Positions 15,358-18,569 of a DNA stretch of 36,813 bases are shown here, piece after piece; position 1 is the first letter of the stretch; each line of letters starts with the position of its first letter. This stretch comes from an uncultured Acidobacteriota bacterium (GTDB taxonomy: Bacteria > Acidobacteriota > Polarisedimenticolia > Polarisedimenticolales > Polarisedimenticolaceae): the NCBI GenBank assembly GCA_945787955.1, contig CALZKF010000019.1, positions 1-36,813 of the forward strand, read 5' to 3'. The notes under the pieces were generated by a model, which searched no databases, had not been told where the DNA came from, and saw nothing but the letters and a program-made list of their open reading frames with translations. The translations under genes and the position numbers were made by a program.

Positions 15358-18300
15358 TCAGAACAGCTTCAGAACCGTGAGCATGAACTCCTGCTGGTCT
15401 CCCAGTTCAGGGATGTCCGCCGAGATCGCCCGGCCGTAATTGAAAATGAAGTAGGTCTTCCACGGCCCCGGCGTATTCACGGAAAATCCGGCGCCGGTGA
15501 AGCTGCGGGTTGCTTCGTCCAGGAGGCTGTTCACCACCGCCGCGGTCTGAACGGTGGCGTCCAGTTGCAGGATATCGAAAACGTTGAACGAGTATCCGAC
15601 CCGCAGGATTTTGCCCTGGTCGAACCTGACCCCGGATCCGGAAAACCCGCTCAGGCGGGTCTGGCCGAAGAACGATATCTCGTACTGGCTGAAGCGGTCC
15701 AGGTCGTCACCATCCAGGTAGGTCACTTCCGCCCGGACCTTCTGGAACTTCGGCAGGAACCATTCTTTGTTGAGAGAGGCTTCCCAGCGAGCGTATCGCT
15801 CCGGGTCACCGGCGGCGACCGGATTCACGAATTCCCCCGCTCCCGGGTCGAACAGCCCCCAGTCTCCCCATTCCGATCGCCGGAAACGGCTGTGCTCCGC
15901 CGAGAAGGTGTAGCCCCTGCGGTTGTAGAACAGCTCCACGGCACCTGATGAAACGGTGTGGTCCGGCGGGAGCACGAACTCCAGAGGAGTCGGCAGGCCG
16001 GCGCGGTGCGCCTCCGCCTCGTCCTCCTGGTCATATTCGACGAATCCCAGCCGTCCGATCAGATTCAACTTGGCGAACTTGCCCAGTGGGAAACCGGCCT
16101 GCAGGCTGACGCCCTGTCGCCTGCTGCGGATCCGCTCCGCCAGGAGTTCCCGGTCCCCGTCGAACACCTTGTCATCGAATTTCAGGGCAATGCCCTGAAC
16201 ATTAAGGGTCAGGTCGATCTTGCGGCCGAACAGATCCGGCTCGGTGGCGGTGGCGTTGAGGAATACCCCGGCGAAAAACACGTTGGCCTGGATACCTTTT
16301 CCGAACAGATCGTAGTTGAAGTAATCCGCGCCGCCCAGGGGGACGATGTTGTCCAGGCCGTTATCCTTGAACAGGCCGGCGGCGGCGAACAACTGGCTGG
16401 TGTCCATCTCGCTCTTGACTGTCCGTGTGCCATCGTCCCGCCGCTCCAGGTAGCGGAAGCCCTGATCGGTGTCCCGCAGCATCTGGTTGTCGGACCGGTA
16501 GGCCGCCTCCCGGGCCTCCTGAAACGTTTCGGGATCCGGATTGATGCGATAGGTTTCGAAGGTCACTTCGCGCTGGACCATGAAGTTCCGGCCGCCTGCG
16601 GTCCAGACCTGCTGGCCGTTGATGGCGGAGATCATCCAAAGCTCCCTGCCGTCCGGTCCGGCTACCGCTGCATAGGTGTCCCGTTCTTCGTTGGCCAGCA
16701 CCGGGGCTTCCAGGTTGTTCTGTACCAGCGAAACCTTCAACCGAACGAAATTTTCGCGATCTATCCAGACTCGGCCCCGGTACAACGGCCGCGCCGGGTC
16801 CGGGTTCTCCGGCTCGAAGGCCAGGATCCATGCCTCCCGCCCCGCGACCTGGCCCCGACCTGCCAGACGGTAGCGGTAGGTCCGGTCCAAAGTGAGGTCC
16901 ATCGGCAGGGTGATGACCTTTTCCGGCTGAATCAGAGGAATTTCGGGAAACTTTTTCCAGGGAACCCGGGTGCCGTTTATCGAGTATTCGGTCTGCTCCC
17001 ACTCCAGATCTTCCCCTCGGGCCCAGAAATAGTTGCTCTTGATCGACACGTCGATGTTGGAGCCGCCCTGGGCGAACTTGAAGTGGTAATCGACCCGGGC
17101 GGCGGCGATCCAGCGTTCGATGTAATCGTCCTGGACCTGCTGCACCGCCTGGTGCTGCGCAATGATCTCCTGGGCGGACAGTTCCCGCTCACGATCCACC
17201 CTCAGTTTTTCCGTGTCCAGTTCGAAACCGGGGGTGACCACGCCTGCCTGGTATTCCAACAGCAGCGGATAGTCTGCTGGGCTGACTTTGACGTCCCGGC
17301 CGGGACTGCCGTCCGGGACCTCCACCGTCGTTGTTCTCAGGCGGCTGCCGGAAACGGGGTCGACTATGTACGGGTTGCGGACGAAGTTCGACGGCAGTCG
17401 CAGCCATGCCTTCCGACCCTCGCCGTCGCCGGCGGCCAGCTCGTAGACAACCAGCGCCTGGAACGTCCGGTCGCTGAAAAATTTTCCGACCACTCCACCT
17501 GCCGGCTCACCATCCCCCTCGATGTTCCTGAGAGAGCTTGCCTCCATCGGCGCAGGTGCATATCCGGCCATGAGGCTGGTGGCGGTGCCGGCCATCCACA
17601 GGATTCCGGTATCCCTCCCGGGGCCGTCACCCGGTAATTCGGTGATTGCGGCAGCGGCGCCGTTGTGGAGGGCGGCCAGCGCAACAGCCAGCCGGCGCGA
17701 CAGCGCCTCGTCCCCCGAGGCGGATTCGAACCGCGCCCATAGAGCCGGCGCCGGCGGAAAGCCCAGGGACTCGGGGATCAGTTTCCGGATAATCTCTCCC
17801 GCTTCAGCCGCATCTTCCAGGCCGAATCTCAGCGGCAGAATATCAACGTAGGGCGAGGTTTCGTTTCCCCACAATTCCCGCTGCCAGTCGATCCTTCGGG
17901 AGTCCACGGCCCCCTGGGATATAGCCGGAACCGGAAGCCCGGCTCTCTGCGCTTCAGCCCTGATCGCCAGCGCGGACTGTTTCAGGACATAGGCGTAAAC
18001 GTCTGCGGAAACTCCTTTTCGGGTTGAATCGCCGGAAGGAAGGTCCATTACCTCGTACACCGCCACACGGTCCCCCAGGTGCCGGACAGAGCTGCGGGTG
18101 TATCTCAGCCAAGCCTCCACCGCTCCGGGCACCAACGGAGTGGGACCGCCGCCGCCGGGAACATATGCCGGATGGGAGCCGTCCAGGCACAGGGAAACCA
18201 CGGCACCTGTCCGCCTCAGATCGTCGACGCGCTCGCTGAGTGCGGACCAGTCGAACCGGCCCGGTTCGACCTCGACCTGAGCCCAGTCCGCCGTCAGGCG

Positions 18301-18477
18301 GACAATCAGGGGGGCGGCGCGGTTACCTGAAAGCAGCTCTTCTGGAAGCGGCGGCCCGGCAATTTCGCCGATCCAACCCAGCGAAGGAAACGCCGTCGAT
18401 TCCGTCTCGGCCGCTGCGACCGGGGCCAGAACGATGATCGTAACAAAAACGAGAACATATACCGGTCGCATTGCCAT
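15358..18477 (-). CDS. Outer-membrane fusion: glycosidase-like TIM barrel + LolA/LolB-like domain + C-terminal beta-barrel
   Basis: The 1039-residue protein has a signal peptide (cleavage after about residue 23, APVAAA). Next comes a region to about 330 that reads like a clan A glycoside hydrolase barrel (WAQVEVEPGRFDWSAL, then an AVYEVMDLPSG strand), then a beta-sandwich-like stretch (about 330-425). A segment at about 430-690 resembles outer-membrane lipoprotein-sorting folds (LAGRGQVAGREAWIL, GRVWIDRENFVRLKV). The last about 340 residues are alternating, aromatic-rich strands ending in LKLF, the terminal phenylalanine expected of a barrel inserted by BamA. I chose ATG 18477 because it gives a proper signal peptide and lies downstream of a TTGACA promoter. 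GTG 18552 would add 25 polar residues. Domain names are my reading of motifs, and the function is unknown. Confidence 0.7.
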   Translation of the reverse strand: MAMRPVYVLVFVTIIVLAPVAAAETESTAFPSLGWIGEIAGPPLPEELLSGNRAAPLIVRLTADWAQVEVEPGRFDWSALSERVDDLRRTGAVVSLCLDGSHPAYVPGGGGPTPLVPGAVEAWLRYTRSSVRHLGDRVAVYEVMDLPSGDSTRKGVSADVYAYVLKQSALAIRAEAQRAGLPVPAISQGAVDSRRIDWQRELWGNETSPYVDILPLRFGLEDAAEAGEIIRKLIPESLGFPPAPALWARFESASGDEALSRRLAVALAALHNGAAAAITELPGDGPGRDTGILWMAGTATSLMAGYAPAPMEASSLRNIEGDGEPAGGVVGKFFSDRTFQALVVYELAAGDGEGRKAWLRLPSNFVRNPYIVDPVSGSRLRTTTVEVPDGSPGRDVKVSPADYPLLLEYQAGVVTPGFELDTEKLRVDRERELSAQEIIAQHQAVQQVQDDYIERWIAAARVDYHFKFAQGGSNIDVSIKSNYFWARGEDLEWEQTEYSINGTRVPWKKFPEIPLIQPEKVITLPMDLTLDRTYRYRLAGRGQVAGREAWILAFEPENPDPARPLYRGRVWIDRENFVRLKVSLVQNNLEAPVLANEERDTYAAVAGPDGRELWMISAINGQQVWTAGGRNFMVQREVTFETYRINPDPETFQEAREAAYRSDNQMLRDTDQGFRYLERRDDGTRTVKSEMDTSQLFAAAGLFKDNGLDNIVPLGGADYFNYDLFGKGIQANVFFAGVFLNATATEPDLFGRKIDLTLNVQGIALKFDDKVFDGDRELLAERIRSRRQGVSLQAGFPLGKFAKLNLIGRLGFVEYDQEDEAEAHRAGLPTPLEFVLPPDHTVSSGAVELFYNRRGYTFSAEHSRFRRSEWGDWGLFDPGAGEFVNPVAAGDPERYARWEASLNKEWFLPKFQKVRAEVTYLDGDDLDRFSQYEISFFGQTRLSGFSGSGVRFDQGKILRVGYSFNVFDILQLDATVQTAAVVNSLLDEATRSFTGAGFSVNTPGPWKTYFIFNYGRAISADIPELGDQQEFMLTVLKLF

Positions 18478-18540: not shown

Positions 18541-18569
18541 ATTTTTCGCCACACCCCCCGAACTGTCAA
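18541..18569 (-). promoter_or_regulatory. Putative promoter of the outer-membrane fusion gene
   Basis: On the minus strand a perfect TTGACA (18569-18564) is followed after 17 bases by AAAAAT (18546-18541), a four-of-six match to the -10 box. The predicted transcript starts near 18534, after the GTG at 18552 and before the ATG at 18477, which supports the shorter protein. The rest of the 228 bp divergent spacer up to 18705 is AT-rich near 18640-18690 and holds a GCCTAGGC palindrome at 18662-18669. I cannot place a convincing plus-strand promoter there. Confidence 0.4.

Follow-up and report, generated by a model that had tools for sequence, protein, structure and literature searches.

A predicted Omp85-type outer-membrane protein of Acidobacteriota with a LolA/RseB-like domain in the POTRA position

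The present analysis concerns a gene on the minus strand of a 36,813-nucleotide stretch of DNA (hereafter, the window) from an uncultured Acidobacteriota bacterium, which occupies positions 15358-18477 and encodes a protein of 1039 amino acids (P0001). The frame is stop-free over its 1039 codons, starts with an ATG at 18477 and ends in ...LTVLKLF before the stop codon; it is supported by a full-length homologue of 78% identity from the same genus and by about 100 homologues across the phylum, and the gene is found as a single copy in the source genome (an assembly of 346 contigs). Open frames overlying it in antisense were set aside as shadow frames. The chain was modelled with AlphaFold2 using 56 family sequences, giving a mean predicted local distance difference test score (pLDDT) of 86.0 and a predicted template modelling score (pTM) of 0.76 for the full chain, and 88.6 and 0.84, respectively, for residues 427-1039 only. 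The modelled chain comprises a signal peptide (residues 1-23), a triosephosphate-isomerase-type (TIM) barrel (28-308), a beta-sandwich (315-411), a LolA/RseB-like domain (about 430-690) and a set of strands (694-1038), and the linker 412-434 between the sandwich and the LolA-like domain is weakly modelled. The signal peptide (MAMRPVYVLVFVTIIVLAPVAAA, positions 18409-18477; this and all other features of the gene lie on the minus strand) was read from the sequence and is modelled as a helix at residues 4-22 followed by a low-confidence linker. An earlier note on this DNA had described three modules fused in one chain of 1039 residues and fixed at the outer membrane, and the frame, the homologues and the AlphaFold2 model agree with the fusion, the order of the modules and the anchoring; neither the barrel of the last 340 residues, which the model shows, nor the LolA-like middle was found to be missing. 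The Omp85/BamA type of the barrel and the beta-sandwich at 315-411 had been overlooked in that note, and the strand had been left unstated.

The C-terminal part of the protein (residues 694-1039, positions 15361-16398) belongs to the Omp85/BamA superfamily. In the AlphaFold2 models it forms a barrel of 16 strands between residues 694 and 1038, and the chain ends in LKLF with a C-terminal Phe. Foldseek against the PDB matched the full model with BamA (expectation value, E, 1.6e-10) and the core model with BamA (1.3e-10), CdiB (1.7e-8) and TamA (1.8e-7), FhaC and SAM also being listed; the template modelling scores of these barrel matches are moderate (0.4-0.6 depending on the target), as is expected of a divergent member. 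Alignment of the family barrel profile with BamA/TamA-type barrels of the same class by hhalign gave a probability of 95.2% in local and 97.5% in global mode over about 297 columns, which covers nearly the full length of the barrel, against 1.3% for the reversed-sequence control. The longest conserved loop of the barrel, at residues 925-953 (positions 15619-15705; LDRFS....FFG..RLSGFSGSGVRFD), lies between strands 11 and 12 at the position of the Omp85 loop L6, and its D927, R928, F929 and G944 are invariant in an alignment of 20 sequences. The invariant family segment DRFS...R-x-x-G-F was aligned by hhalign with the Omp85 loop segment xRF-GG..xRGF; its end reads RLSGF in P0001 and RVRGF in several relatives, and the L6 signature (V/I)RG(F/Y) of Omp85 proteins is recognizable in the family. 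The Pfam cut-off for Omp85 (PF01103) was reached neither by P0001 nor by a Sulfidibacter relative, which matched the family with E 0.0023. Proteins of the Omp85 type build the outer membrane; their classical definition asks for at least one POTRA domain ahead of the barrel, although the noNterm and other subfamilies are without POTRA. In P0001 and the 20 relatives scanned, no Pfam match to a POTRA domain was found. The strand count, the L6 loop and the barrel homology are those of an Omp85 protein, whereas the POTRA domain of the classical definition is absent.

In the position that POTRA occupies in BamA, P0001 carries a predicted LolA/RseB-like half-barrel (residues 430-690, positions 16408-17190). 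The Pfam family MucB_RseB matched residues 519-587 with 27.3 bits (cut-off 22.3); among 20 relatives LolA_like matched 18 and MucB_RseB 12 (E <= 0.5), the best LolA_like value among family members being 2.5e-6, under the cut-off of that family. The model places a helix at 435-452, ten strands and a closing helix at 649-661, an order that fits the LolA/RseB fold. A search of the PDB with P0001 as a single sequence gave no match, and the profile of the whole family gave only weak matches to lipoprotein-sorting proteins among the PDB sequences. Matches to NCBIfam greB and other odd Pfam matches had scores far under the cut-offs and were rejected as chance. Conservation in the family, judged from invariant alignment columns, is highest in this domain at residues 501-526 (positions 16900-16977; NGxR...P-E-[LI]-P-L-I-Q-P-E-K...LP). 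This stretch overlaps residues 510-530, where the pLDDT falls to about 60, and may form a mobile lid over a putative LolA-like cavity.

The N-terminal module (residues 28-308, positions 17554-18396) is a TIM barrel with eight strands between residues 32 and 308 in the model, where the strands are listed as E32, E58, E93, E140, E185, E213, E245, E276 and E306. It is followed by a beta-sandwich (residues 315-411, positions 17245-17535) which resembles the C-terminal part of PslG, the GH39-like hydrolase of Pseudomonas Psl. PslG was the top Foldseek match of this part of the chain (E 1.8e-11, over about 440 columns), and it was also found by sequence with a profile of 16 family N-termini (E 3.6e-10). 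The fold of GH39/PslG, a TIM barrel with a beta-sandwich, is thus present, but the pair of catalytic Glu residues is not complete. The key residues of PslG are E165 and E276 (PMC9075953). In the HMMER alignment, the Asn-Glu165 pair of PslG, which holds the acid/base, corresponds to Asp-Ser in the family consensus and to Asp-Leu in P0001 (residues 145-146, positions 18040-18045). An acid/base Glu was found in none of 50 relatives, the lone 'NE' string being in a relative with a shortened domain. At the nucleophile place of GH-A enzymes, which was located from strand order and not from residue alignment to E276, P0001 carries Glu251, where the seventh strand ends (positions 17725-17727), and a Glu is found there in 6 of the 50 relatives. 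As the family lacks the acid/base Glu throughout, the N-terminal module is probably a pseudo-enzyme rather than a hydrolase, and unlike PslG it is not a free enzyme. An active glycosidase was rejected because of the loss of this residue; the earlier term 'glycosidase-like' holds for the fold, and catalysis on a glycan is improbable.

When 297 genomes sampled evenly across Acidobacteriota were searched with the full protein, 106 gave matches, four of them weak, which leaves about 102 true members. Within its own class the gene is carried by 32 of 34 genomes (31 matching class-mates and the source genome), and the two genomes that lack it have completeness values of 75% and 84%. Scanning 84,980 species genomes with one degenerate 10-residue family motif, which distant relatives elsewhere would escape, gave 77 loci, nearly all of them Acidobacteriota by title and including Thermoanaerobaculia, Holophagales, Aminicenantes and Sulfidibacter; two loci under other names, one from Rokubacteriota and one from a Deltaproteobacteria metagenome-assembled genome, may be mislabelled. 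No relatives of P0001 were found on plasmids and viral contigs. The median pairwise identity is 0.35 for the LolA-like domain and 0.32 for the barrel, and only 0.20 for the TIM barrel and 0.18 for the sandwich. In the proteins of one taxonomic family (f32), which have about 830-850 residues, the LolA-barrel core is kept and is preceded by about 210 residues, too few for a full TIM barrel and sandwich. By these comparisons, the LolA-like domain and the barrel are the conserved core, and the TIM barrel varies between members and is largely eroded in f32. Since the core outlasts the N-terminus, the LolA-Omp85 pair must be the seat of the core function.

The same LolA-barrel core was also observed in a second group of paralogues of about 1030-1120 residues (L063:8045-11137, with matches in G015:C87 and G152:C38), and the N-terminus of L063:8045-11137 resembles an STN domain with an E of only 0.2. 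The LolA motif was further seen in other Acidobacteriota (L191:714-3179, L192:2299-4848 and L194), in proteins of roughly 820-850 residues with VWA-type-looking domains and a LolA-like domain and in others that are stand-alone and secreted. Further genomes from the core-profile search had, where listed, a match to the LolA motif only, and those inspected are separate proteins of these two kinds, VWA-LolA-like or stand-alone LolA-like.

P0001 almost certainly represents a new Omp85 subfamily, largely of Acidobacteriota, in which a LolA/RseB-like domain replaces POTRA and follows a degenerate PslG-like TIM barrel and sandwich. With the known Omp85 proteins (BamA, TamA, FhaC/CdiB, PlpD, noNterm, metallo- and WD40-Omp85) it shares the 16 strands, the xRGF-like motif in L6 between strands 11 and 12, a collinear profile match and the C-terminal Phe, whereas the domain at the POTRA place, the PslG-like N-terminus and the Pfam score below the cut-off set it apart. 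Its architecture matches none of the ten Omp85 subfamilies of PMC4104836, judged by their descriptions there. PlpD, a patatin-Omp85 protein, is similarly built as a single chain of signal peptide, enzyme-fold domain, small linker domain and Omp85 barrel; PlpD has patatin and one POTRA where P0001 has the degenerate GH39-like TIM barrel and the LolA-like domain. The enzyme domain of PlpD is periplasmic and affects membrane lipids and phospholipid levels (PMC11116518). In Borrelia, the Omp85 protein BBJ25 clusters with the LolA-like BBJ28 and a LolE-like ATP-binding cassette (ABC) exporter (PMC13078400). In this BBJ23-29 cluster, likened here by description, a LolA-like carrier and an Omp85 barrel likewise belong to one proposed system, but as separate genes with an ABC exporter, whereas P0001 is a fused chain with no linked exporter; the Borrelia paper was the only close case of LolA with Omp85 found in the open-access literature. 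The middle domain shares with LolA, LolB, RseB and PF17131 LolA_like a predicted half-barrel with terminal helices and a Pfam match, and differs from them in its fusion to an Omp85 barrel, in its conserved Pro-rich motif NGxR..PELPLIQPEK and in not being a lipoprotein. One relative (L022:177-3281) matched the Bacteroidota family DUF5686 (PF18939; residues 526-650 against 116-239 of 669, E 4.6e-4) across the LolA-like stretch and a little past it, the best score being 19.2 bits against a cut-off of 39.2; P0001 gave no match to PF18939, nor did any protein of the source genome. The DUF5686 model, with a length of 669, has room for a barrel as well, and this Bacteroidota family may share the LolA-plus-barrel plan.

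The subfamily is of interest because a LolA/RseB-like domain in the POTRA position joins the machineries of lipoprotein or lipid trafficking and of barrel assembly in one chain. In phyla without LolB, such a fusion offers a concrete candidate gene for the reception or crossing of lipoproteins at the outer membrane, and the envelope biology of Acidobacteriota has been little studied. The PslG-like module, retained yet catalytically dead, is a second oddity.

In the window, the gene has MlaD-MlaF-MlaE, an acyltransferase, two glycosyltransferases and polysaccharide genes on one side, and DUF4388, NYN, LpxH-like and tgt/queA genes on the other. Genes for Mla, PlsC and UDP-sugar dehydrogenase are found again in 6-9 of 15 loci of the same class. 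They are essentially absent from the 56 loci compared in other classes; there, recA and smr are common neighbours and gene calling is rough owing to shadow frames in GC-rich DNA. The Mla and polysaccharide context, being limited to the class, therefore reflects gene order at the class level and is not enough to establish a role in glycan handling. The other-class neighbours (RecA, Smr, diacylglycerol kinase, thiolase and asparaginyl-tRNA synthetase) were considered as partners and were read as housekeeping genes in chromosomal order. Upstream of the gene, a sigma-70-like promoter sequence (TTGACA-17-AAAAAT, positions 18541-18569) lies 64 bp before the ATG; one site was found against 0.8 expected in shuffles, which makes it weak evidence, and its position tentatively favours the ATG at 18477 over a GTG at 18552. 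Elsewhere in the source genome, separate LolA proteins were found by the Pfam scan. One contig (G000:C56, L189:251-7131) carries an MMPL transporter, a BNR-like protein, a LolA_like-related DUF1329 protein and a DUF1302 barrel in a row, a further set reminiscent of lipid export, and another (G000:C208, L190:3338-5434) has a gene for a MacB/FtsX-type permease immediately after that for a PF17131 LolA_like protein, so that LolA-like carriers tied to envelope export appear to be a recurring theme of this genome.

The Omp85/BamA type of the barrel makes insertion or translocation a likelier function than passive display. In the mechanism that we tentatively favour, the chain would be exported by Sec and the barrel inserted by the barrel assembly machinery through its C-terminal ...LKLF signal, with the N-terminal modules remaining in the periplasm. 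To judge from PlpD (PMC11116518), the soluble modules probably lie in the periplasm rather than on the cell surface. The client would be lipidated, either a lipoprotein of the outer membrane or a glycan linked to lipid. The LolA-like cradle below the barrel would take up the acyl chains of such a client, which would then be delivered to the Omp85 barrel at its lateral seam and be inserted by the barrel into the outer membrane or moved across it. The catalytically dead TIM barrel could serve as a client-recognition or spacer module, perhaps glycan-binding, that is free to diverge or vanish. Such a transfer from the LolA-like domain to the barrel is preferred because of the PlpD and Borrelia precedents and the pairings of LolA-like carriers with export genes in the source genome, and the explanation as a whole, in which the identity and the transfer are taken together, is evenly balanced. 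Its fuller form, a single-chain insertase for lipoproteins or glycolipids whose cradle passes clients to the barrel for insertion or flipping towards the surface, is unlikely to be correct in all its parts; if true, it would be a terminal LolB-like step in a phylum mostly without LolB, and an Omp85 protein whose client is a lipid anchor and not a protein strand. Several observations weigh against the proposed identity and transfer. The top Foldseek rows for the core model hold barrels only and no LolA structure, and the putative LolA-like fold is assigned from Pfam and modelled secondary structure. No partner gene that would name the client is conserved across the phylum among the loci compared. 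LolB was not found by Pfam in the source genome, as in most Acidobacteriota, and its absence was dropped as specific support because it is general in the phylum with or without a gene of this type.

The LolA-like domain could instead dock unfolded barrel clients, lipid being uninvolved, in which case P0001 would be an insertase or assembly factor for outer-membrane proteins similar to TamA or BamA. The Omp85 type of the barrel and the near-universal presence of the gene in the class favour this, and according to Heinz and Lithgow an Omp85 subfamily that is uncharacterised is by default taken to assemble proteins (PMC4104836). However, other Omp85 genes, one of them BamA-sized, are present in the source genome, a TamB-TamA-like chain is found in the class, and no POTRA domain was detected. 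In the known cases, to our knowledge, the ligands of LolA/RseB folds are lipids or lipidated molecules and not beta-strands. This role is also considered unlikely. A protein of lipid homeostasis or sensing, in which the middle domain senses lipid or lipopolysaccharide in the periplasm in the manner of RseB or PlpD and the barrel or the TIM module relays the signal, is favoured by MucB_RseB as the best Pfam match above its cut-off and by Mla genes near about half of the same-class loci, and PlpD does affect phospholipid levels (PMC11116518); it is quite unlikely, as the gene has no conserved neighbour of the RseA or sigma-E type and the Mla linkage is confined to the class.

The earlier note had proposed export or display of a surface glycolipid or polysaccharide, with the PslG-like module handling the glycan and the barrel exporting or anchoring it. 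The Mla, glycosyltransferase and polysaccharide neighbours it named are indeed present in the window, UDP-sugar dehydrogenases occur in 6-7 of the 15 same-class loci, and the fold is that of PslG. Such a role is conceivable but lacks specific support, because the acid/base residue is missing throughout, the TIM barrel is poorly conserved and the gene persists in f32, where that barrel is mostly lost, and no glycan genes accompany it outside the class; it is regarded as improbable. PL-Omp85 proteins were first classed as type Vd secretion, and P0001 has the PlpD-like order of signal peptide, N-terminal enzyme-like domain, linker domain and Omp85 barrel. A type Vd-like autotransporter, whose barrel would move the TIM and LolA modules to the cell surface, is nevertheless very improbable, since the PlpD domain has been shown to be periplasmic and PlpD as type Vd is now disputed (PMC11116518), and a compact TIM barrel with a sandwich is an unlikely passenger.

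A further observation concerns the other Omp85 proteins of these genomes. A 2068-residue chain (L187:1414-7620; G059:C1, about 723413-729619) has Pfam matches to TamB, to four POTRA domains and to Omp85; judged from these matches, it is a fusion of TamB with a TamA-like protein. A paper on the evolution of the TAM system describes a BamA-TamB operon in Acidobacteria, and the word 'fusion' is not used there (PMC4494059). Many class-mates have open frames of a similar kind, about 2000-2400 codons long and containing Omp85.

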